Origin: a virus
Reading direction: 5' to 3' (one strand)
Length of the DNA: 26,263 nucleotides
IMG/VR virus record: IMGVR_UViG_3300028548_003810
Location: 1 to 26,263 of that record
The translations under genes and the position numbers were made by a program. Under the pieces are notes generated by a model, which saw only the letters and a program-made list of their open reading frames with translations, searched no databases and was not told the origin of the DNA. This document shows, piece after piece, positions 1 to 26,263 of the stretch. Numbering within the stretch: the first letter of the stretch is position 1; the number at the start of each line of letters is the position of its first letter.

Positions 1-941
1 GCTTCTGCCTTTTTCTTATCAATCATATTGGTTTTAAACTCTTCATCAATATGTTGCTGACAAGTAGGACAATCTTCACTATTCTCAAAGAATGTTACAT
101 TTGTAGAATGGGCTTTATGTTTCTCTTTTAATGTTGATTGCAAATCTTTTAATTCATCAAATCTTGTTTTTATCTTTATTGAATCAGATATACTTTGAGT
201 CATATCATCACTGACTTTCTTTAAGTCATCAATGATTTTTTTCTTCTTGACAATCTCTTTCTCATTTGTTGATATAGAAGATTTCTTTTCATCTAGTAAT
301 TTTCTTTTGTTTTCTTTTAAATCTTCAATATAATTTTCTTTCAGATGAATTTTTTCGGATGTCAATTCAATATTATAAGCAATATCTTTCAATTCATCAT
401 CTATAGTTTTTAGTTTTTGTTTGAGAATCATATTCATCAAAGAGAAAATTTGAATGTCAAGAATTTCCTCTACTACTTCACGACGATGACGAGCCTTCAA
501 TTGCATAAAAGGAATAAAAGTAGAACTACCCAGAATTACAACCTGAGTAAAACTACGATAATTTAGTTTAAGAATTTGTTGTTCTAGATATTTTTGATAA
601 TCACGAACATTTGCATCTTGATTATACATTTTACCATTAATGTAAATCTCAAACACAGTTGGTTTGATGCCACGAATAATTTTTATTTTCTTGGTGCCAA
701 TACGAAACTCAACTTCTACCAGTGCATCACTGATATTAACAGAATTTACAAGTTGAGGTTTGTTGATATTACGAAATGGTTTTCCAAATAAACCAAAACA
801 TAAAGCATCAAGAATAGTAGATTTACCTGCACCATTCTCACCAATAATCAGTGTGGTAGAATTTTCATCTAACTGAATTTCTGTAAATTGGTTTCCTGTG
901 CTTAGAAAATTCTTCCAACGCACCATTTCAAAATGTATCAA
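1..941 (-). CDS. 46: Recombination endonuclease subunit gp46 (SbcC/Rad50-like), partial
   Basis: ATPase subunit of the gp46/gp47 complex, which resects DNA ends for recombination-dependent replication. About 313 N-terminal codons are present; the gene runs off the left edge. The P-loop GENGAGKST lies at residues 34-42, followed by a long charged coiled-coil stretch. A zinc-hook CPTC lies at about residues 291-294, as in the Rad50/SbcC family. I chose a TTG start at 941, which overlaps the gp47 stop as TTGA. It has an AGGA eight bases upstream and gives the N-terminus (M)IHFEMVRWKNFLSTGN. The ATG at 926 is the alternative, but it lacks a ribosome site and would drop five residues. The identity is firm; the start is likely. 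Confidence 0.93.
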   Translation of the reverse strand, partial: MIHFEMVRWKNFLSTGNQFTEIQLDENSTTLIIGENGAGKSTILDALCFGLFGKPFRNINKPQLVNSVNISDALVEVEFRIGTKKIKIIRGIKPTVFEIYINGKMYNQDANVRDYQKYLEQQILKLNYRSFTQVVILGSSTFIPFMQLKARHRREVVEEILDIQIFSLMNMILKQKLKTIDDELKDIAYNIELTSEKIHLKENYIEDLKENKRKLLDEKKSSISTNEKEIVKKKKIIDDLKKVSDDMTQSISDSIKIKTRFDELKDLQSTLKEKHKAHSTNVTFFENSEDCPTCQQHIDEEFKTNMIDKKKAE

Positions 942-1987
942 AGCTCTAAGTCCTGTGCCTCTGTGTATAGAGTTCTCATAGTGTTCTTCAATCTATCTTT
1001 ACTCAATGTCACATCTAGCTCGTCAATGTACCTGTCAAGCAGTGTCATAGTGTCCTCAGTGTTCTTAACAATATCATCTGATACATTGCTTGCATCTAAC
1101 TCTGAAAAATCTTCAATGATTTTAACTTCATAACAATCAGCTTGCAGAAGTTTATCAACAAATTTATCAAACTGATAAAGGTCTTTCTTATTGACTACAA
1201 TTAATTTTACATACTTATTTTTGTATCGTGTCATATCATTATTCATTTCAACACTGTCATCATAATATATTTTAGAGAACATTGTCAAGGGATTTACGAT
1301 ACGTTCTAGTTGTCTTGTGTTTGTATCAAATATATGAAATCCTTTTGGGTCATCATGATCATTCCAATAAATTTCATATGGTGTGCCGAGATAATATACA
1401 TGTCCATCATCAGATTTGTGATGATAATGTCCACTCATCACCATATCAAAACGATTGAATTCTTTTTTGTCCCAACCATGATCCATAATAAAACCTTTCT
1501 GCATGGCAAAACCATTTAGTTCTAAATGTCCCATACACACTTGGGCTGGAGATGTTTTCAACAGTTTCATAGTGTCAGACATGTTTTCACTATTAATCCA
1601 AGGAACAAATAATATCTTACATCCATCAAAATCTACTTCTGTAGCCTTTGGATATATTGTAATATTATCATGTCTACCATCTACTAATTCTTGTAGAGAA
1701 TTGACTTCATTCGTATTCTTATAAAAAGTATCATGATTTCCTACAAGCATATGAAAATCAATACCATCAAATTGGTTTACAAATCTTTCACGAAAATCTT
1801 TTGCAATTCTGTATGATACATATTTTCTTCTATCCATCACATCACCAAGATGAATAACAGTTGTTATGTTATTCTCTTTTAGATAAGGGAAGAAAACATT
1901 TTCATAAAAGTCGAAAAAGTATTCATTAAAATTAAGATTCTCAGATCTTGCGCCAAAATGAGTATCTGTGATCAATGCAACTTTCAA
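938..1987 (-). CDS. 47: Recombination endonuclease subunit gp47 (SbcD/Mre11-like)
   Basis: Nuclease partner of gp46. All the calcineurin-like phosphoesterase motifs of the Mre11/SbcD family are visible: DTH (residues 8-10), GDVMD (48-52), GNHD (83-86), GHLE (152-155) and SGHYHH (184-189). These residues hold the two metal ions. The length of 349 residues is near that of T4 gp47. The start is TTG, overlapping the gene 55 stop as TTGA, with GGAG eight bases upstream, so translation is probably coupled to gene 55. The gene is followed directly by gene 46 in the same overlapping style. Confidence 0.95.
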   Translation of the reverse strand: MKVALITDTHFGARSENLNFNEYFFDFYENVFFPYLKENNITTVIHLGDVMDRRKYVSYRIAKDFRERFVNQFDGIDFHMLVGNHDTFYKNTNEVNSLQELVDGRHDNITIYPKATEVDFDGCKILFVPWINSENMSDTMKLLKTSPAQVCMGHLELNGFAMQKGFIMDHGWDKKEFNRFDMVMSGHYHHKSDDGHVYYLGTPYEIYWNDHDDPKGFHIFDTNTRQLERIVNPLTMFSKIYYDDSVEMNNDMTRYKNKYVKLIVVNKKDLYQFDKFVDKLLQADCYEVKIIEDFSELDASNVSDDIVKNTEDTMTLLDRYIDELDVTLSKDRLKNTMRTLYTEAQDLEL

Positions 1988-2520
1988 TCGTCTTTCTCCA
2001 TAAAAACTTCCAATCCTTTAGCTAAAGTAGTTTCTTTCTTTTTAGGTTTGTATACATCTTCATCTGGAAGCAAACTATTAATGAATGTCTCATCAATACT
2101 ATAAACAGTATCATCACCTGCCATTGTTATAAATGGAACATAACTTTGTTTTTCAATCATCTTATTTCTAACATGCACTTGCTTTTTTTCAGCTTGGATT
2201 CTTCGAAGAAATGCATAATATATGATTTGAGTAAAATATGCAAATGGATTTTTAGATTTCTCTGGGTCAAAATTATATGCGTATTGTAGACAGTTTTGAA
2301 TACCATCAGAAATCATTTCATCACGATATGAATAATTGATAAAATTTGGTCTGTAAGATAAATGAGTAGCAATTTTTAGGAAACACTCGCCAATATAATT
2401 TGTCAATGGTGGTGTGTAATCATCGTCATCTTCATAATCTTTACATTCGTCTTTCCATTCTACCATAGCTAGTAGAAATTTTTTATTGTCTACATAATGA
2501 ACACTTTTTTTCTTGACCAC
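1984..2520 (-). CDS. 55: Late-transcription sigma factor gp55
   Basis: Phage sigma factor that directs host RNA polymerase to TATAAATA late promoters. The 178 residues match the layout of T4 gp55 (185 aa): an N-terminal YVDNKKFLLAMVEWK segment, a central EMISDGI...NFDPEKSKNPFAYFTQ core resembling sigma region 2, and SIDETFI near the C-terminus. The protein ends in LEVFMEKDD, a hydrophobic-acidic tail like the T4 element (LDFLYE) that binds the gp45 sliding clamp. That implies clamp-activated late transcription here too. The start is GTG, with AAGGAG six bases upstream. A sigma70-type promoter lies just upstream, which fits expression before the late genes. Confidence 0.94.
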   Translation of the reverse strand: MVKKKSVHYVDNKKFLLAMVEWKDECKDYEDDDDYTPPLTNYIGECFLKIATHLSYRPNFINYSYRDEMISDGIQNCLQYAYNFDPEKSKNPFAYFTQIIYYAFLRRIQAEKKQVHVRNKMIEKQSYVPFITMAGDDTVYSIDETFINSLLPDEDVYKPKKKETTLAKGLEVFMEKDD

Positions 2521-2542: not shown

Positions 2543-2571
2543 ATTATAACATAAAAAAAATATTATTGCAA
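2543..2571 (-). promoter_or_regulatory. Sigma70-type promoter of gene 55
   Basis: On the minus strand, -35 TTGCAA (2566-2571) and -10 TATAAT (2543-2548) are separated by exactly 17 bases. The -10 is preceded by TG one base away (extended -10, TGTTATAAT), a form also common in T4 early promoters. Transcription would start near 2536, giving a short leader that carries AAGGAG before the GTG of gene 55. No late octamer is present here, so gene 55 is probably read by host holoenzyme. Confidence 0.7.
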
Positions 2572-2605: not shown

Positions 2606-2634
2606 TTGACAGGGGGTTCTGAACTCACTATAAT
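2606..2634 (+). promoter_or_regulatory. Perfect-consensus sigma70 promoter pointing rightward (antisense)
   Basis: The plus strand carries TTGACA (2606-2611), a 17-base spacer and TATAAT (2629-2634): both hexamers and the spacing match the bacterial consensus exactly. The spacer contains the palindrome GTTCTGAAC (2616-2624), a possible operator. Transcription would start near 2641 and run antisense into the LSm-like gene and uvsW. No plus-strand gene follows. The pair with the gene 55 promoter is divergent, with the -35 boxes 34 bases apart. Confidence 0.6.
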
Positions 2635-2650
2635 AGACCATGTAGGGCGT

Positions 2651-3100
2651 TTAATGAATAGTTACATTTGATTTGATATGTTGTAATAAGTCATTAAGTT
2701 TATCTATTTCTACTTCTTCTACTTCTTCTTCAATTTCATATAACTCTTTATCTGTTGGTTCTATAGTTTCATCAAAATCTGGGCCTCCATCAGAAATATT
2801 AAATTGATTGATGCAATGTTTATAATAATTTGAAAGTTCTATAGAAGCAGAAACTAGCATAACAATATTACGTGAATTGATATCAATAAACTCATCATCT
2901 GTTAATGGATGAATCCATGGTGATAAGCTTAAAGCTTCAACAAATCCTGTCTCTGTCTTTTTTGGTACAAGAACAAGTTTTAATGGAAAAGATATATGTA
3001 TAGTTTTTTGCGAATCATTAGAAATATCATATGTCTCTAATATTTTTCCTATAATACTTTCTCCATTAGTCAATTTTAAAATTACAACTGATTCTTTCAT
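2651..3100 (-). CDS. LSm/Hfq-like domain protein of unknown role
   Basis: A 149-residue protein. The first 80 residues resemble a small beta-barrel of the Sm/LSm type: it starts VVILKLTNGESIIGKIL, the classic strand 1-strand 2 pattern, and continues with alternating beta strands (IHISFPLKLVLVP, NIVMLVSAS). The C-terminal third is acidic (EIEEEVEEVEIDKLNDLL) and probably disordered or coiled. The ATG overlaps the uvsW stop (ATGA). I recall unnamed proteins of this kind near uvsW and 55 in marine T4-like phages. RNA binding is inferred only from the fold resemblance; the function is unknown. Confidence 0.75.
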   Translation of the reverse strand: MKESVVILKLTNGESIIGKILETYDISNDSQKTIHISFPLKLVLVPKKTETGFVEALSLSPWIHPLTDDEFIDINSRNIVMLVSASIELSNYYKHCINQFNISDGGPDFDETIEPTDKELYEIEEEVEEVEIDKLNDLLQHIKSNVTIH

Positions 3101-4563
3101 AGTTTTATCCTATTAATTTTGTAATTGAATTTTTGACTTTTATATATTTTTAGACGTTCACTGAAATGTCTTAAAAGAAAATTAATTCTATTGTTTGGCA
3201 TAGAACAGTCGTCTACAATGTCAAATAACCTAATGGTATTTTTAATGTCAGTTTTGCGCAAACCTCTCCCGATAGATTGCAAAACTCTGATTTTAGACTT
3301 GGACGGTGAACTGAACACGATGTTGTGGATATTACGAATATTAATACCAGTACTGAATGTGCCATAACTCGCAACAATAATTGCGTTCTTTTCATTTTCA
3401 ACAATCTCTCTTATTTCTTCTCTAGTTTCTGCATCGACACCACCATGAACAAAAAATATAGATCTATCCTTGTATTTATTAATTAACAATTCATGCAAAA
3501 CCTTTCCATGCTTTTCTACAAATTGAAAAAGGCATAGTGTGTTACCATCAATGCGCCCCATAAGGTCAACAATAAAATCATTCCTTTCAGGTTTTGTGAC
3601 AACAAATTCCAGTTCTTGTGCATATTCAAATTCCTCTATTAATTGTCTGTCTTCATCTGGGTAACCTAATATTATACAATTAATTTCTAAATTGGCCAAT
3701 GTTTTATTATCAATAAGTTCTCTGGTTGTTATAACATATTTAGACTTTCCAAATAATCCCTCTAAAACAAGGCGATGTGTTTGTGTATCATCTAATGTTC
3801 CTGTCAAACCAAATCTGTATTTACACTTATGCAATTTAGTCATAATTCCAGTAAGAGATTTTGCCTTGAATAAATGAGCTTCATCACCTACCACGCAACC
3901 AAATTGTTTAAAATATCTTTGAGGCATTTTGTGTAATGATTGCCATGTAGATATAACCACATCTTTAACTACTTTTTTATCATGACCTTGATAAATTTTC
4001 TGACAATGTTTTTCTGAATCCCAACCATAATCTGCAAAATCTTTATACATCTGTTCTACTAATGAAGTTGTTGGAACTAATATAAGAGTTTTTAATTTTT
4101 TCATATAGTAATAACGAATAAGACAATATATTATAAGTGATTTACCAGAAGCAGTGGGAGAGATAAGAAGAGCCCGATTAGTTGCAATTGCATGAGCAAC
4201 AGCACTGATTTGATAATCTCTCGGTTTAATTCTTTCTCCACCAAGAGTAGGTTTCAATGCCTCTACAAACCCTTCAACAGCCTTTCTTGATACTGGCCTT
4301 TTACTTAACACACCAGTATCAAGATTATAATCTACATTAGAGTTTTGTAAATATTCTTCTATGTAAGGTAAAAGTCCCACATAAATTTCTCCTGTATTAA
4401 TATTATACAGACGAATTTTACCATCCCACATTTTATTGCGAAAACTTGGCATAAATTTATGGCCGGGAACTTCAAATGTAAAAAAATCATTAAGTTCTGC
4501 TGCGATAGATGGTTCCACATCTATTAGATTAAGATGAACTTCATTTTTTTTAGAAATAAGCAT
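3097..4563 (-). CDS. uvsW: UvsW-type DNA/RNA helicase
   Basis: SF2 helicase that in T4 unwinds R-loops and branched DNA and shifts origin-dependent replication to recombination-dependent replication. From the chosen start it has 488 residues. The N-terminal DNA-binding domain (residues 1-100, with WDGKIRLYN) is followed by Walker A SPTASGKS (135-142), DEAH (227-230), LTGTL (motif III) and a C-terminal QSIGRGLRK (motif VI). It aligns with T4 UvsW along its length. I chose the ATG at 4563, because T4 UvsW begins just there relative to the domain. An in-frame GTG at 4596 would add 11 residues and deepen the overlap with the upstream gene from 14 to 47 bases. Confidence 0.94.
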   Translation of the reverse strand: MLISKKNEVHLNLIDVEPSIAAELNDFFTFEVPGHKFMPSFRNKMWDGKIRLYNINTGEIYVGLLPYIEEYLQNSNVDYNLDTGVLSKRPVSRKAVEGFVEALKPTLGGERIKPRDYQISAVAHAIATNRALLISPTASGKSLIIYCLIRYYYMKKLKTLILVPTTSLVEQMYKDFADYGWDSEKHCQKIYQGHDKKVVKDVVISTWQSLHKMPQRYFKQFGCVVGDEAHLFKAKSLTGIMTKLHKCKYRFGLTGTLDDTQTHRLVLEGLFGKSKYVITTRELIDNKTLANLEINCIILGYPDEDRQLIEEFEYAQELEFVVTKPERNDFIVDLMGRIDGNTLCLFQFVEKHGKVLHELLINKYKDRSIFFVHGGVDAETREEIREIVENEKNAIIVASYGTFSTGINIRNIHNIVFSSPSKSKIRVLQSIGRGLRKTDIKNTIRLFDIVDDCSMPNNRINFLLRHFSERLKIYKSQKFNYKINRIKL

Positions 4564-5161
4564 ATTGATATTCTTCTCTAGAACCATAATCCCCACGAAG
4601 AATACAATTCCAAGAAATACTTGTTCTCTCAGCTGACGTTGGTGGAACCCAATGCTGCAACCACGACGGAAAAATTAATCCAGTTCCGACAATCGAATCG
4701 AATTGTAACATAGAAGAATTCTGCCAAGTTGCAGTTCCAGCTGGTTTTAAAATATTTGCTTGTGGTTTTGGGTCAAAAAATTGTATGGGAGATGAATCCT
4801 TTGAACTTTCTATGTAATACACACCAGACAAAAAATTATTAGAATGTGTATGTGGTGGATGTGCTCTACCTTCATTCATATGATTTCCCCACATACTAGT
4901 TATTTCAATACTTTTGTATGCATCATACTTTAAATTTTTCAAGATATTAGCAGTAGTATTTTGAACAATCTCTACTAGAGATTTAAATTCTTCTAATTTA
5001 AACAAGTTGTCTTTAGTTTGAATCATTCCTTCCATTGTCATTGGTTGGTTTTTAATATATTCAATCATTTTTAAATGTTCATCAAACAAGTCTGATTCGA
5101 ATTTGTAAATCATTGTGGGAAACGCCGCATACTCATCAATCTTTAAATTCACATCAACCAT
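4550..5161 (-). CDS. Putative 2-oxoglutarate/Fe(II) oxygenase (2OG-FeII_Oxy_5-like)
   Basis: Likely 2OG/Fe(II)-dependent dioxygenase, 203 residues from the ATG at 5161. The signature of this phage-rich family is visible: HTHSNNFLSGVYYI (iron ligands around H104/H106), then GLIFPSWLQHWV with the distal His170, and R179 in ERTSISWN, which would bind 2-oxoglutarate. The substrate is unknown; relatives in marine phages are also uncharacterised. It overlaps the preceding oxygenase by 13 bases and uvsW by 14, so the three are probably one transcript. GGAG lies nine bases before the ATG at 5161. An ATG at 5176 (five more residues) is possible. Confidence 0.85.
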   Translation of the reverse strand: MVDVNLKIDEYAAFPTMIYKFESDLFDEHLKMIEYIKNQPMTMEGMIQTKDNLFKLEEFKSLVEIVQNTTANILKNLKYDAYKSIEITSMWGNHMNEGRAHPPHTHSNNFLSGVYYIESSKDSSPIQFFDPKPQANILKPAGTATWQNSSMLQFDSIVGTGLIFPSWLQHWVPPTSAERTSISWNCILRGDYGSREEYQYAYF

Positions 5162-5688
5162 GATACTATGCTCCATCTTTCGCCTTTCGTGATAGGTTTA
5201 ACTTCATGAGGAAACATAAAGTTGGATGGAAATATAATTCCAGAACCAGATTTAGTTTTATAACTATTATTTTCAACGATAAATTCACCACCTTCATATT
5301 CGTTGTTTATAAAGAAAATAACTGTAGCCTGTGGATATCCATATCGTTGACCATGAGAATGATGAATGTTGTCAGAATGAAGAGACATAAACCCATCCAC
5401 TCCGTATCTATTAATACGAAAATTAGTGTGATGAATACAAGAAAAATTTTTATGTTTTTCTCCATACAATTTCATAATCTTCAAAACAGATTCTTTTAAT
5501 CTAGGATAAGGTCTATTTAAATCTTCTACCCAAACTTCATCCATCAAAACTCTATTTTGACTATCTGAATTAACACCTTCATTGCTAGAGTATGTAGAAT
5601 TTTTCCATGTCCAAGGATAGTTCATAATTTCTTTGCATAAATCAGCAGGAACAATATTATCATAATATTCAATCCAATTATTTAACAT
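5149..5688 (-). CDS. Putative 2-oxoglutarate/Fe(II) oxygenase (prolyl-4-hydroxylase-like)
   Basis: Second oxygenase, of a different subfamily from its neighbour: 179 residues with the P4H-type core. His104 and Asp106 (HSDNIHH), distal His161 (FPHEV) and Arg171 (GERWSIVSW) form the complete iron and 2-oxoglutarate site, and EGGEFIVEN is the typical strand before it. The ATG at 5688 overlaps the uvsY stop as TGATG and has GGAGG six bases upstream; the TTG one codon earlier is less likely. Substrates in this family include prolines in proteins and nucleic-acid bases; nothing here decides between them. Confidence 0.88.
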   Translation of the reverse strand: MLNNWIEYYDNIVPADLCKEIMNYPWTWKNSTYSSNEGVNSDSQNRVLMDEVWVEDLNRPYPRLKESVLKIMKLYGEKHKNFSCIHHTNFRINRYGVDGFMSLHSDNIHHSHGQRYGYPQATVIFFINNEYEGGEFIVENNSYKTKSGSGIIFPSNFMFPHEVKPITKGERWSIVSWLM

Positions 5689-6125
5689 CAAAAACCTCCA
5701 GACAAATGTATTTGTTGCTGTTGGGCATTTTTAATATCCCAACCTCTTTGTTCAATACCTTTTAAAGTATCCTCTATAAGACCTAATGCGCATTTATGAT
5801 ACTCAAGTTTTTTATCAATTTCTATTATTTCATCATCTGCATTAATATACATATCAAGGTCTGTTCTGAGAACTTTCATATCAAATGGTTTTTCTGAGTA
5901 AATCTTTGAGTCAGATTTGCCCGCATAATATTCCCATTTATTGAAATACATTTTTCTGTGATCTAGTTTTAATTGAAAAATTAAAAGTTTATACTTGGCT
6001 TTGTATTCGTTCCATTTAGGTCGAATTCTTTGATTTTTATATGACTCTTGGTGTAAGTGTTCAAAATTATCATCAATATCTAAATCTCTCTTTGCTTCAG
6101 CGGAGAGTTCACTTAATTTATCCAT
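5688..6125 (-). CDS. uvsY: UvsY-like recombination mediator
   Basis: Loads the UvsX recombinase onto gp32-coated single-stranded DNA in T4. The 145 residues match T4 UvsY (137 aa) in pattern: KWNEYKAKYK early on, then the hallmark YYAGKSD (T4: YYSGRGD), MKVLRTDL, DKKLEYHKCALGLIEDTLKGI and a C-terminal RGWDIKNA (T4: RGFAIKH). The gene follows the tube-like tail gene after a 12-base gap and overlaps the first oxygenase. uvsX and gene 32 are not in the window. Confidence 0.9.
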   Translation of the reverse strand: MDKLSELSAEAKRDLDIDDNFEHLHQESYKNQRIRPKWNEYKAKYKLLIFQLKLDHRKMYFNKWEYYAGKSDSKIYSEKPFDMKVLRTDLDMYINADDEIIEIDKKLEYHKCALGLIEDTLKGIEQRGWDIKNAQQQQIHLSGGF

Positions 6126-6727: not shown

Positions 6728-6735
6728 TATTTATA
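6728..6735 (-). promoter_or_regulatory. T4-type late promoter TATAAATA (tube-like gene)
   Basis: An exact late octamer on the minus strand. In T4 the octamer covers -13 to -6, so +1 would fall on the A of the ATG at 6722. The stretch between the octamer and the ATG is only CTTGT. It lies 115 bases beyond the gp23 terminator hairpin and restarts late transcription for the tail gene, uvsY and what follows. Confidence 0.8.
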
Positions 6736-6849: not shown

Positions 6850-6874
6850 AAAAAAAAGGGGTCCGACGGACCCC
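6850..6874 (-). terminator. Intrinsic terminator after gene 23
   Basis: A perfect 7-bp GC-rich stem (GGGGTCC/GGACCCC at 6858-6864 and 6868-6874) closes a 3-base loop and is followed on the minus strand by eight T residues (6850-6857). It lies 57 bases past the gp23 stop and is the only strong terminator I see in the window. Confidence 0.93.
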
Positions 6875-6891
6875 TGTAACTTTCTTCTTTA

Positions 6892-15968: not shown

Positions 15969-15976
15969 TATAAATA
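15969..15976 (+). promoter_or_regulatory. T4-type late promoter TATAAATA (plus-strand gene)
   Basis: An exact octamer on the plus strand, five bases (TTTAC) before the ATG at 15982. By T4 geometry the first transcribed base is the A of the ATG. Confidence 0.75.
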
Positions 15977-15981
15977 TTTAC

Positions 15982-16281
15982 ATGTTAACGCATTATGAAA
16001 AATATAAATGCACTATAAAAAAAGTTGCAAAACGTAATTATCGACAACGTATTGTGTGGCTAAATGAGTATCTTGCCGAGAAGTCATGCATTCATTGTGG
16101 TGAAAGTGAAACTGTTTGTCTTAAATTTTATCCTTATAATAATAAAATAAGAAAACTTACTCAACGTAAGGGAATGAATGATGGAAGTAGAAAAGAATTA
16201 AATGAACTTATAAAAAAATCTAAGATTGTGTGTTTAAATTGTTTCATCAAACTGGATTCAGATTTAATAGAATTTATTTAG
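15982..16281 (+). CDS. Degenerate HNH-like zinc-finger protein
   Basis: The only convincing plus-strand gene, 99 residues, lysine-rich. It has the frame of small phage HNH endonucleases: a basic N-terminus, CIHC (Cys36, Cys39), a ~45-residue linker with a KGMNDGSRKELNELIKKSK helix, and CLNC (Cys84, Cys87). The usual catalytic histidines are missing. The FHH-type motif after the first CxxC reads FYP (49-51), and the His after the second CxxC is Phe. It is therefore probably not an active nuclease; DNA binding may remain. It is convergent with gene 17 (two bases apart), divergent from gene 18, and has its own late promoter but no ribosome-binding site. Confidence 0.8.
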   Translation: MLTHYEKYKCTIKKVAKRNYRQRIVWLNEYLAEKSCIHCGESETVCLKFYPYNNKIRKLTQRKGMNDGSRKELNELIKKSKIVCLNCFIKLDSDLIEFI

Positions 16282-20772: not shown

Positions 20773-20780
20773 TATTTATG
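20773..20780 (-). promoter_or_regulatory. Late promoter variant CATAAATA (gene 15)
   Basis: Seven of eight bases match TATAAATA, and N-ATAAATA is the form reported for late promoters of marine T4-like phages. The octamer contains the stop codon of the fibre gene and lies 31 bases before the gp15 ATG, with AGGAG in the leader. Confidence 0.65.
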
Positions 20781-23700
20781 CACCCGCAGTATGACAAGTT
20801 TTTAATGTAGTGCCACCAGAGTTTTTAATCAACAGAGTTGACAGTGTTTTAAGTTCTGCTGAACCAATCGCATCATTTGCCATTTTTGCTTCTGTCACTT
20901 GGTCGTCGGCAATGTGGGCAGTATCGATACTACCAGCAGCATAATGCTCAGAGTCAATAGCATCATCAGCGATATGTGCGTTATCAATAGAACCATCTGT
21001 ATAGTGTTCTGAATCAATAGCATCATCAGCAATCTTAGTTGCATCAATAATATCAGCAGAAAGATGCGCTCTATCAATACTACCGTCTATATATTCATCA
21101 CTGTCGATGGAGTTTGCTGGCATAACTGGTATCTGAGTAAAGGTCACTACACCATTTGAGGCAATCGCTATAGCATCCAAGTCACTAGCAGAACCAATAA
21201 GACCGCCATCTTTAACTACTAAGTCACCAGCAACTTGGAAGTCACCGATTGAACTTAGCGTTGCCTTCGCAGTTGCACTAGAAGCAGCAGTCTCAGATAC
21301 ACCTGTAGTAAATACCAGTTTAGTAGCATTTGCACTTGCAGTGAATGCTCCTTCAGCAATAGCGTGAATACCCGCAGCTACCGTAGAACCATCTGTTCCA
21401 CCAGAGTCACCAGCGGCAAACTCAAGAGAAGCAATCACTTCATTTGCTACAAGCGCATCTTCTTCAGATTTCAACTGTAGTACCATTGGTAGATTATCAC
21501 CAGTACCAACATGTGTTGCCGTAAGACCAACATTATGAACATGTTTAAGTGTAACATCAGAGTTTACACCAAAGGCAATTTGGGCAGCATCACTTATCAG
21601 AATAATGTCATCACCAATAACAGCGTCTAGCACTACTGACAAACCACCATCAGTTTGAAGTGAACCATCAGTTGTACTTGTAGCAGCAGTGCTATCATCT
21701 GTTTTAATGATACCACTAGCAGTCAAAGCCGCAGTCGTAACTGCGCCAGCAATGACACCTGTACCAGAAACATCTAGGTTACCATTGACATCAATTAGAG
21801 TTGAGTTAAGTTCTATTTCGTCATCAGCATTAATATCCAAATCGCCATCTGCTGGTGAACCAATACTAATAGCAGAGTCACGGAAACGAAGTTGCATTGC
21901 AGCATTAATCATTATTCCGTTATCAGCAACGTGAGTTAGTGTTACATCTTTGTCTGCACCAAAAGTTAATACAGCAGCGTCACTAAGTAAGAATAAGTCA
22001 TCGCCAATGACTGCATCAGCAGCAACAGATAGACCACCATCAGTTTGAAGTGAACCATCTGTGGTACTTGTGGCCGCAGTAGTATCATCTGTTTTCATAA
22101 CACCACTAGCAGTCAAAGCCGCAGTTGTCACCGCACCAGCGATAACACCTGTACCAGAAACATCTAGGTTGCCATTGACATCAATCAGAGTTGAGTTAAG
22201 TTCAATTTCATCGTCAGCATTAATGTCTAAATCACCATCAGCTGGTGAACCGATACTGATTGCGCTATCACGGAAACGAAGTTGCATTGCGGCATTAATC
22301 ATTATTCCGTTATCAGCAACGTGGGTTACAGTAACATCTTTATCGGCACCAAAAGTTAATACAGCAGCGTCACTAAGTAAGAATAAGTCATCGCCAATGA
22401 CTGCATCAGCAGCAACAGATAGACCACCGTCAGTCTGTAAGGAACCGTCAGTAGTAGAAGTTGCAGCAGTAGTATCATCTGTTTTTATAATACCACTAGC
22501 AGTCAAGGCAGCAGTTGTGACAGCACCAGCGATAACACCTGTGCCACTAACATCTAAGTTTCCATTAACGTCAATCAAAGTTGAGTTAAGTTCTATTTCA
22601 TCATCAGCATTAATATCTAGATCACCATCTGCTGGTGAACCAATGTTGATAGCAGAGTCACGGAACTGAACAACCATAGCTGCGTTAAGTAACAGACCTG
22701 TATCAGCAACGTGAGTTAGTGTTACATCTTTGTCTGCACCAAATGTTTGTACCGCTGCATCACTAAGTAAGAATAAGTCATCACCAATAACTGCATCTAG
22801 TGTTACAGACAAACCACCATCGGTTTGTAATGAACCATCTGTTGTAGAAGTTGCAGCAGTGCTGTCATCTGTTTTAATAATACCACTTGCGGTTATAGCG
22901 GCAGTTGTTGTAGCGCCAGCAATATCAACCACACCTGAGAAGTCACCTGTGGCAGCATCTATCTCTCCAGAAATTGTAAGATTTCTTTGTCCTGTTGTAT
23001 CTATGTTTGAATCTGTAGTGACTACTTTAGAAGCAATTGCTGTACCAGCAGTTAAACCATCAAGTAGTTCTAGTTCTGTCTCAACAATGCTTGCACTACC
23101 GATTATGAACCCTGTCGCAGTAACAGTAGAGTTGAATGCCGCAGCACCAGCAGCACTACCATCAATCGTTAAGAAGGTTGTATCTGAACCACCATCTGTG
23201 CCTTTGAGAATAATATCACTATCGTTAGCAGCAGCATCAAGAGTAATGTCACCAGAACTGGTTGTTAGAAGGATTGCTGCATCACCAATAGAGAGATTAT
23301 CTGCTGCCAATGATGAAGCAGAAGCATCAGCCCAAGAAAAATCTGTACCATCTGCTGTTAGCACCTGGCCGTTGTTACCAATTGCTAGTACAGCAGGATC
23401 ACCACTCGCATCACCATATATAATCTTACCCCGTGCAATTCCAGCCATTTTAGCAAGGGTAATTTGGTTATCTCCAATGTGTGCAGTATCAATACTTCCG
23501 TCAATATACTCATCACTGTCAATGGAGTTTGCTGGCATAACTGGTATCTGACTGAATGTCACTACACCACTAGATGAAATTGCCATCGCATCCTTGTCAC
23601 TAGTAGAACCAATTGTACCAGCATCCTTGATAACCAAGTCACCAGCAACTTCGAAATCACCAATAGAACTTAGTGTTGCTTTAGCAGTTGCACTTGATGC

Positions 23701-26263
23701 AGCAGTTTCAGATACACCTGTAGTAAATACCAGTTTAGTAGCATTTGCACTTGCACTAAAGGTTGCTTCAGCGATTGCGTGAATACCAGCGGCAACCGTG
23801 GCACCGTCTGTTCCATCTGAGTCACCAGCAGCAAACTCAAGGGAAGCAATCACCTCATTTGCAACAACCACATCCTCTTCAGATTTTAATTGTAAAACAA
23901 CAGGAAGATTATCACCAGCAGTATGATGCTCTATCGTAAGACCAACATTATGAACATGAGCCAATGTAATTTCAGAGTTAGTACCAAAGGCAATTTGGGC
24001 AGCATCACTTATCAGAATAATGTCATCACCAATAACAGCGTCTAGCACTACTGACAAACCACCATCAGTTTGCAATGAACCATCTGTTGTACTTGTAGCA
24101 GCAGTACTATCATCCGTTTTGATAATTCCACTTGCAGTTAGGGCCGCAGTTGTCACCGCACCAGCGATAACACCCGTGCCTGATACATCAAGATTACCAT
24201 TGACATCAATTAAGGTTGAGTTAAGTTCAATCTCATCATCAGCATTGATATCCAAATCACCGTCAGCGGGTGAACCAATACTGATTGCGCTATCACGAAA
24301 ACGAAGTTGCATTGCAGCATTAATCATTATTCCGTTATCAGCAACGTGAGTTACGGTAACATCTTTGTCTGCACCAAAAGTTAATACAGCAGCGTCACTC
24401 AGTAAGAATAAGTCATCACCGATAACTGCATCAGCAGCAACCGATAGACCACCATCTGTCTGTAGTGAACCATCTGTTGTAGAAGTTGCAGCAGTAGTAT
24501 CATCTGTTTTCATAACACCACTAGCAGTCAAAGCCGCAGTTGTTACTGCGCCAGCAATGACACCTGTACCTGAAACATCTAAGTTGCCATTAATATCAAT
24601 CAAGGTTGAATTGATTTCTACCTCGTCATCAGCATTAATATCCAAATCACCATCTGCTGGCGAACCAATGTTGATAGCAGAGTCACGAAACTGAACAACC
24701 ATTGCAGCATTAACTAATAGTCCAGTATCAGCAACATGTGTAAGGGTTACATCTTTATCTGCACCAAAAGTTACCACAGCAGCGTCACTGAGCATGAATA
24801 AGTCATCACCGATAACAGCGTCTAAGACTACCGATAGACCACCATCTGTCTGTAATGAGCCGTCAGTAGTACTTGTTGCAGCAGTACTGTCGTCCGTTTT
24901 GATAATTCCACTTGCGGTTATAGCGGCAGTTGTTGTAGCGCCAGCAATGTCTACCGCACCAGAATAGTCACCTGTGGCAGCATCGATCTCTCCAGAGATG
25001 GTAAGGTTTCTTATGCCTGTGTAATCTTTATTAGAGTCTAGGATAACTGCTTTACTGGCAACTGCTGTACCAACAGCAGTACTTCCTATATCAAGAGCAT
25101 TGATTTCTCCAACGACAACTGTTGCACCATCTAGGATATTCAGTTCAGCAGGAGTGGATGTGATTGCCGTAGTTGTAGCAGCTGCAAGTAGAGGAACATA
25201 ACCACTTTGATTAATTAGTCTTTGTGTACGATCAGCAGTTGGGTCAATGATTGTAAGAGTTGTTTCGTGATCATCAGCAGTCGCTCCTTCAAACACAACA
25301 GCATTCTCAGCATTCATCGTAACCGTATCAACCTGGGTGGTTGTACCCGATACTGTAAGGTTACCACTAATTTCAACATTTGCATTGATATCAACCAGCG
25401 TAGCATTAAGTTCTATTTCGTCTGTAGCATTGATATCAAGTATAGCATTACTAGGCGCACCAATGTTTTGACTTGCATCGTTGAACTGTATTACTCTTGT
25501 ACCATTTAACAACAATCCTGTGTCAGCCACGTGTGTAAGGGTTACATCACTGTCGGCACCAAAATGAATAACCGATGCATCACTCAACATAATCAAGTCA
25601 TCACCGATAACAGCATCCAAGACTACTGACAAACCACCATCTGTCTGTAGTGAACCATCAGTTGTACTTGTAGCAGCAGTGTTGTCATCAGTTTTGATAA
25701 TTCCACTTGCAGTCAAGGCAGCAGTTGTGACAGCACCAGCAATAACACCTGTGCCACTAACATCTAGGTTGCCGTTTACATCAATTAAGGTTGAGTTAAG
25801 TTCAATCTCATCGTCAGCATTGATATCCAAATCACCATCTGCTGGAGAACCGATACTAATCGCACTATCCCTAAACCGGAGTTGCATTGCAGCATTAATC
25901 ATTATTCCTGCATCAGCAACGTGGGTCACGGTAACATCTTTATCGGCACCAAAAGTTAATACAGCAGCGTCACTAAGTAGGAATAAATCGTCACCGATAA
26001 CTGCATCCAAGACTACTGACAAACCACCATCAGTCTGTAGTGAACCGTCTGTTGTAGAAGTTGCAGCAGTACTGTCGTCAGTTTTGATAATACCACTTGC
26101 AACGATTGTAGACGTTGTAACAGCAGCGGCACCAGTTGTTCCACTAATAGTTACATTACCATTTATATCAATTAGAGTTGAGGTTATATCTATTTCATCA
26201 TCAGCAGCAATCATTAAATCGCCGTCATTATCAGAAGCAATACTAATAGCAGAATCACGGAAC
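20776..26263 (-). CDS. Giant repetitive tail-fibre-like structural protein, partial
   Basis: An open frame runs to the right edge, so the N-terminus is missing; about 1,828 residues are present. Most of it is a tandem array of a 130-residue, beta-rich, acidic unit containing TSTTDGSLQTDGGLS, AVIGDDL, LTFGADKDVTLTHVAD, FRDSAISIGSPADGDLDINA and LIDVNGNLDVSGTG (quoted in parts). Inserted segments carry AELNILDG and RNLTISGEIDAATGD motifs, common in phage fibres. The last ~110 residues change to short IDSEHYxDGSIDxAHIADDA repeats, which suggest a thin trimeric shaft, and end in a small tip with one Cys. It has very few aromatic or Cys residues. Its position before gp15 suggests a tail or neck fibre. 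Such repeat proteins are common in marine phage metagenomes. Confidence 0.85.
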   Translation of the reverse strand, partial: FRDSAISIASDNDGDLMIAADDEIDITSTLIDINGNVTISGTTGAAAVTTSTIVASGIIKTDDSTAATSTTDGSLQTDGGLSVVLDAVIGDDLFLLSDAAVLTFGADKDVTVTHVADAGIMINAAMQLRFRDSAISIGSPADGDLDINADDEIELNSTLIDVNGNLDVSGTGVIAGAVTTAALTASGIIKTDDNTAATSTTDGSLQTDGGLSVVLDAVIGDDLIMLSDASVIHFGADSDVTLTHVADTGLLLNGTRVIQFNDASQNIGAPSNAILDINATDEIELNATLVDINANVEISGNLTVSGTTTQVDTVTMNAENAVVFEGATADDHETTLTIIDPTADRTQRLINQSGYVPLLAAATTTAITSTPAELNILDGATVVVGEINALDIGSTAVGTAVASKAVILDSNKDYTGIRNLTISGEIDAATGDYSGAVDIAGATTTAAITASGIIKTDDSTAATSTTDGSLQTDGGLSVVLDAVIGDDLFMLSDAAVVTFGADKDVTLTHVADTGLLVNAAMVVQFRDSAINIGSPADGDLDINADDEVEINSTLIDINGNLDVSGTGVIAGAVTTAALTASGVMKTDDTTAATSTTDGSLQTDGGLSVAADAVIGDDLFLLSDAAVLTFGADKDVTVTHVADNGIMINAAMQLRFRDSAISIGSPADGDLDINADDEIELNSTLIDVNGNLDVSGTGVIAGAVTTAALTASGIIKTDDSTAATSTTDGSLQTDGGLSVVLDAVIGDDIILISDAAQIAFGTNSEITLAHVHNVGLTIEHHTAGDNLPVVLQLKSEEDVVVANEVIASLEFAAGDSDGTDGATVAAGIHAIAEATFSASANATKLVFTTGVSETAASSATAKATLSSIGDFEVAGDLVIKDAGTIGSTSDKDAMAISSSGVVTFSQIPVMPANSIDSDEYIDGSIDTAHIGDNQITLAKMAGIARGKIIYGDASGDPAVLAIGNNGQVLTADGTDFSWADASASSLAADNLSIGDAAILLTTSSGDITLDAAANDSDIILKGTDGGSDTTFLTIDGSAAGAAAFNSTVTATGFIIGSASIVETELELLDGLTAGTAIASKVVTTDSNIDTTGQRNLTISGEIDAATGDFSGVVDIAGATTTAAITASGIIKTDDSTAATSTTDGSLQTDGGLSVTLDAVIGDDLFLLSDAAVQTFGADKDVTLTHVADTGLLLNAAMVVQFRDSAINIGSPADGDLDINADDEIELNSTLIDVNGNLDVSGTGVIAGAVTTAALTASGIIKTDDTTAATSTTDGSLQTDGGLSVAADAVIGDDLFLLSDAAVLTFGADKDVTVTHVADNGIMINAAMQLRFRDSAISIGSPADGDLDINADDEIELNSTLIDVNGNLDVSGTGVIAGAVTTAALTASGVMKTDDTTAATSTTDGSLQTDGGLSVAADAVIGDDLFLLSDAAVLTFGADKDVTLTHVADNGIMINAAMQLRFRDSAISIGSPADGDLDINADDEIELNSTLIDVNGNLDVSGTGVIAGAVTTAALTASGIIKTDDSTAATSTTDGSLQTDGGLSVVLDAVIGDDIILISDAAQIAFGVNSDVTLKHVHNVGLTATHVGTGDNLPMVLQLKSEEDALVANEVIASLEFAAGDSGGTDGSTVAAGIHAIAEGAFTASANATKLVFTTGVSETAASSATAKATLSSIGDFQVAGDLVVKDGGLIGSASDLDAIAIASNGVVTFTQIPVMPANSIDSDEYIDGSIDRAHLSADIIDATKIADDAIDSEHYTDGSIDNAHIADDAIDSEHYAAGSIDTAHIADDQVTEAKMANDAIGSAELKTLSTLLIKNSGGTTLKTCHTAGA
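21121..25020 (-). repeat. Segmental duplication inside the fibre gene (offset 2415/2025 bp)
   Basis: The segment from about 21121 is repeated from about 23536 (offset 2415). Within it, 21568-21657 and 23983-24072 are identical over 90 bases. Toward the N-terminal side the offset falls to 2025, for example 22641 against 24666 and 22961 against 24986. The difference is 390 bases, one repeat unit, so one block has gained or lost exactly one unit. Confidence 0.8.
21580..26150 (-). repeat. Nine copies of a 390-bp coding repeat
   Basis: Using the ARACCACCAT/GT segment (codons for TDGGLS) as an anchor, copies start at 21641, 22031, 22421, 22811, 24056, 24446, 24836, 25631 and 26021. Six of the eight intervals are exactly 390 bases (130 codons); the others are 1245 and 795, where unrelated segments are inserted. 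Part of a tenth unit reaches the right edge. Confidence 0.9.

Follow-up and report, generated by a model that had tools for sequence, protein, structure and literature searches.

The window analysed here is a stretch of 26,263 nt (positions 1 to 26,263 of the IMG/VR record IMGVR_UViG_3300028548_003810) from a T4-like marine phage related to the Kyanoviridae. Its nearest annotated relatives are the Methylophilales phage Melnitz and the Pelagibacter phages HTVC008M and Mosig, with cyanophages next. The minus strand carries genes for capsid and tail proteins, UvsY, two 2OG oxygenases, UvsW, an Sm-like protein, gp55, gp47 and gp46. Profile and domain matches identified UvsY (5688..6125, minus strand) and the helicase UvsW (3097..4596, minus strand). 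The Sm-like protein gene (LSm; 2651..3100, minus strand) was recognised by a match to PDB 3by7 (E 1e-4) and by a Pfam Sm_like match (E 2e-6) that falls just under the Pfam cut-off. It is followed by the gene of a gp55-like late sigma factor (1984..2520, minus strand; phrog_234, E 5e-61) and, downstream within the gp55 unit, by a gp47-like nuclease gene (938..1987, minus strand; profile match). Elsewhere in the window, a fibre-like repetitive open frame of more than 1800 aa with recurring blocks (20776-26262, minus strand) runs off the contig.

Between the LSm stop (2651) and the gp55 start (2520) lies a predicted sigma-70 promoter on the opposite strand (TTGACAGGGGGTTCTGAACTCACTATAAT, 2606..2634, plus strand). 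As the sequence-only reading had noted, its −35 hexamer TTGACA (2606-2611) and its −10 hexamer TATAAT (2629-2634) are both exact and are separated by 17 nt, in agreement with the sigma-70 consensus (TTGACA, TATAAT, 16-18 nt spacing). By chance, 0.12 perfect sites are expected in the window (spacers of 15-19 nt, both strands); one was found, and 12 of 100 shuffled windows contained such a site. Taken alone, the single perfect site is suggestive and not decisive.

The gene map agrees with the further claims that the promoter faces no gene and points antisense to the LSm-like gene and then to uvsW. The genes identified for kilobases downstream of it are on the other strand, and no conserved ORF starting in the predicted antisense RNA was found, so that a leader peptide or a small plus-strand gene was rejected. 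The element thus has the layout of a cis-antisense promoter, lying antisense to an annotated gene and without an ORF of its own. The 3′ end of LSm would be the first antisense target, followed by uvsW. We also rejected a discrete small RNA, because no conserved terminator was present within 400 nt or 9 kb downstream and no Rfam match at the gathering score was found in the window. Among eleven sequences scanned, antisense intrinsic terminators were absent or isolated.

We then compared related loci, namely gp55 and uvsW relatives from IMG/VR together with cultured phages, all chosen by gene similarity and not by promoter. An antisense site was counted when at least 10 of 12 sigma-70 positions matched, at most 200 nt upstream of gp55 and on the strand opposite to the genes. 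Such a site was present in 142 of 156 related loci, and 51 of them had all 12 positions. Two contigs near-identical to the window both contain the exact site. Among dissimilar representatives (less than 85% similar), 37 of 39 had a site of at least 10/12, compared with 58 of 1232 control tiles (less than 5%) drawn from the same loci, while sites of 12/12 occurred in 14 of the 39 representatives and in none of the 1232 tiles. Some of the lowest scorers still keep a recognisable site, for instance TTGACT-N17-TATCTT in locus L043. The cultured carriers are HTVC008M, Mosig, P-HM1, P-SSM7, S-SKS1, S-SSM5, S-RIM2, ACG-2014d, DSL-LC02 and Syn9, with hosts among SAR11 (HTVC008M and Mosig), Prochlorococcus and Synechococcus; Melnitz, a phage of OM43, has a weaker antisense site. 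In a distant relative (L104; uvsW 4001-5428, gp55 from 5499), the Sm-like gene is absent and only a weak antisense site, TTTACT-N16-TATAAT, then CACTAATGTG, precedes gp55.

This conservation, and not the single occurrence, is the decisive evidence for a real site. Because nearly all of about 150 related sequences keep it, the antisense promoter is almost certainly used. A functionless match in AT-rich DNA would fit the 0.12 sites expected per window, but it is refuted by the retention of the site in dissimilar relatives, and we give it a negligible probability. The sequence-only reading had asked for both hexamers and a spacer palindrome to be conserved, and only the hexamers were. They hold 0.6-2.0 bits per column, compared with 0.04-0.8 bits in the spacer. 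The palindrome GTTCTGAAC is present (2616..2624), but its proposed role as an operator was rejected, since no part of the element is less conserved than the spacer, which drifts freely.

The same intergenic spacers hold a second promoter, which the sequence-only reading had missed. In the window, a predicted sigma-70 promoter in the gp55 sense (TTGCAA-N17-TATAAT, with TG before the −10) is located at 2543..2571 on the minus strand. Because a gp55-sense site of at least 10/12 is found in 144 of 156 loci, the element is, as read from its sequence, a back-to-back divergent pair. The −35 hexamers of the two promoters are a median of 14 nt apart, and in part of the cyanophages they overlap, giving TTGACAAACTTGTCAA in Syn9. 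This layout would suit a coupling of the two promoters, in which the divergent promoter tunes gp55 through supercoiling or RNA polymerase competition and the antisense RNA is a by-product. However, the spacing of the two promoters ranges from −16 to 68 nt, and the start-site sequence described below is conserved beyond what coupling needs, which makes this explanation very unlikely. Bacterial divergent promoters likewise consist of two back-to-back sigma-70 promoters; what sets the present pair apart is its conservation at a single core-gene junction within a phage family.

Upstream of the pair, an ORF was called in 153 loci and proved Sm-like in 149 of them. In one locus (L120) a carbamoyltransferase gene is inserted between uvsW and LSm, and the pair is still found between LSm and gp55. 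The antisense site therefore appears to be tied to the LSm-gp55 junction rather than to uvsW.

Next we looked at the boundaries of the transcription units. In the window, a late-promoter-like motif, TATAAATA (6728..6735, minus strand), lies upstream of a unit comprising the tail tube gene, uvsY, uvsW and LSm, and the capsid unit before it ends in an intrinsic terminator (6857..6875, minus strand), the only sense terminator found in the 9 kb before gp55. In the window and in several relatives, the late motif, as TATAAATA or NATAAATA, precedes the uvsY-uvsW-LSm unit, which fits the earlier suggestion that UvsW is late as in T4. Motifs of the TATAAATA type occur near the site on the sense strand in ten of ten isolates; on the antisense strand of the scanned stretch the isolates have none and the window has one. 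Across eleven sequences, sense terminators were mainly located 3-5 kb upstream of the site, with two weak additional hairpins at about 0.3 kb (in S-SKS1 and Syn9). From the placement of terminators and late motifs, LSm and uvsW look late and gp55 looks early, and the pair appears to sit at the junction where the late unit (uvsY-uvsW-LSm) meets the gp55-47-46 unit. Separately, the window contains a further copy of TATAAATA (15969-15976) immediately before a 99-aa ORF with paired cysteines (15982-16281, plus strand), on a strand that is otherwise nearly empty.

No clear sense terminator was found between LSm and gp55. The antisense promoter might accordingly be viewed as a transcription insulator, whose opposing stream of RNA polymerase would block read-through from the late unit, or from upstream host RNA polymerase, into gp55-47-46. 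The missing terminator, the position kept at the LSm-gp55 junction even with a gene inserted further up, and a conserved RNA body not being found beyond the start region all point in this direction. Nevertheless, a terminator would serve the purpose more simply and a roadblock does not need a conserved start-site sequence, and we regard an insulator as unlikely.

Downstream of the −10 hexamer, many phages share a short dyad centred on TGT and located over the expected start. The conserved TGT lies at about N6-N9 after the −10, which fits a start about 7 nt downstream. In the window, the start is predicted at about 2640-2642 (CAT at 2639-2641), and together with the initial transcribed stretch, AGACCATGTAGGGCGTTTAATG, it occupies 2635..2656 on the plus strand; same-genome copies of it occur in relatives, and the dyad is weak in the window. 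The arms of the dyad vary among phages yet covary, agreeing with one another better than permuted arms (z about −6 to −7.6, 0 of 200 permutations). Stems of at least 4 bp were found in 27% of the sequences, compared with 5% of shuffles, and G.T pairs outnumbered A.C pairs (22 vs 4). These figures are inflated by relatedness, z also reached −3.1 in a control window placed 20 nt downstream, and the dyad is present in only part of the phages. The G.T bias would favour a strand-specific hairpin; a DNA dyad leaves it unexplained. A hairpin at the 5′ end of the RNA is nevertheless disfavoured, and a DNA dyad preferred, because the start is expected downstream of the 5′ arm and because the sequence recurs within the same genome.

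This recurrence concerns about 17 nt at the start site, which six of ten isolates carry again behind other sigma-70 promoters of their genome. The copies match at 17/17 in S-SKS1, at 17/17 and 15/17 in S-SSM5 and at 16/17 in Syn9, and more weakly in ACG-2014d (15/17), Melnitz (15/17) and S-RIM2 (14/17). The best matches differed by a mean of 3.9 mismatches within genomes and 6.5 across genomes. A recent duplication was rejected as the source of the copies, because the promoter spacers differ between them. No second copy was found in HTVC008M, Mosig, P-SSM7 and P-HM1, or, by exact scan, in the clade of the window. We read the start-site sequence as a putative shared feature of early promoters, and possibly as an operator. 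In Syn9, S-SSM5, S-RIM2 and ACG-2014d the second copy precedes a small homologous gene, assigned to phrog_718 by profile in two of them. The small protein (about 65-70 aa; 52794-53006 in Syn9) is a candidate co-regulated gene product or regulator. A similar leader follows the start-site sequence in S-SKS1 (HQ633071, from 169894 downwards, minus strand) and in the second copy of locus L263. It contains a hairpin and a T-run (GAACCGTC...GACGGTTTTCTGCTATAAT in S-SKS1) before a helicase gene and is possibly an attenuator or a small RNA.

These features could also belong to a cis-acting switch at the late-early boundary that is common to the Kyanoviridae, with a phage regulator binding the start-site dyad and, in a variant, the promoter serving as an R-loop origin as well. 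The dyad would then co-evolve with its regulator, and each phage would have its own version, common to a few early promoters. We consider such a switch rather improbable.

Our preferred reading, to which we give slightly less than an even chance, is that of an early promoter, used by the host RNA polymerase, whose anti-late RNA would oppose LSm and UvsW up to the onset of gp55-dependent transcription. The minus-strand promoter of the pair would transcribe gp55, while the plus-strand promoter would produce a non-coding RNA complementary to the 3′ end of LSm, and also to uvsW if transcription continues. Judging from the promoter type only, the antisense promoter would fire early with unmodified host RNA polymerase. 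Polymerase collision and RNA pairing would then keep the levels of LSm and UvsW down until control passes to gp55 and late transcription. T4 expresses uvsW from a late promoter, and its UvsW protein clears R-loops from origins (PMC3016281), so that a phage would have a reason to delay UvsW. Support comes from both promoter motifs and their conservation, from the unit boundaries, from the late-type motif of the target unit and from the start-site sequence common to promoters of several phages. We also count in its favour that hexamers and spacing are conserved while the spacer sequence drifts, and that same-genome start-site copies lie behind promoters of small genes. Against it, sense transcription may be too scarce early in infection to be opposed, and the RNA has to reach about 0.5 kb to uvsW, and more than 2 kb in L120.

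Anti-late RNA in T4 arises from early transcription reading through into late genes, whereas the element described here would be a dedicated, conserved promoter. We found no prior description of it in the literature searched; a transcription start-site map of Syn9, which reportedly exists, lay outside that search. T4 gene 32 is reported to be transcribed on both strands, sense and antisense (Belin et al. 1987, as cited in PMC3014915), a precedent for phage RNA against phage genes in a T4-type phage, at another locus. A second precedent is CfrI, a cis-antisense RNA of cyanophage S-PM2 (PMC2984593). Like CfrI, the RNA predicted here would be a cis-antisense RNA of a Kyanoviridae phage. The CfrI transcript has been detected and spans psbA together with a homing endonuclease gene, whereas the RNA predicted here would cover LSm and uvsW, and its promoter is kept family-wide.

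The proximity to uvsW and uvsY also raised the question of replication. At T4 oriF, or ori(uvsY), a promoter likewise lies near uvsY and uvsW, accompanied by an A+T-rich unwinding element, and UvsW acts on the R-loops there (PMC3016281). The antisense RNA could similarly prime DNA synthesis at an R-loop origin. A strong promoter without a gene adjoins uvsW and uvsY, a short G-rich stretch follows the start in many phages, and a single theta origin was predicted for Syn9 (PMC2984593). In most of ten genomes, the site is in or near a minimum of the detrended cumulative GC skew, but this minimum is wide and in most cases does not coincide with the site, falling between 0.72 and 0.09 of genome length around it. 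The skew at fourfold sites differs weakly between the two sides, and a contrast in third-position skew was dropped as origin evidence, as it nearly vanished at fourfold sites. Furthermore, the sequence after the start does not clearly exceed the genome in A+T content. The skew data leave an R-loop origin neither supported nor excluded; overall we consider it quite unlikely. T4 oriF differs in using a MotA middle promoter.

Cyanomyoviruses are without homologues of MotA and AsiA (PMC2984593). With this element, one can test how phages that lack these proteins keep early and late transcription apart, and at which point they begin replication. Some phages of the family are abundant in the ocean, and a non-coding promoter that cyanobacterial and SAR11 phages both keep at one core-gene junction would point to a shared infection step missed by protein annotation. 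HTVC008M has two further perfect sigma-70 sites against late baseplate and head genes (23571-23543 and 19462-19434, both minus strand), the second of which may serve a DNA end protector gene on that strand.
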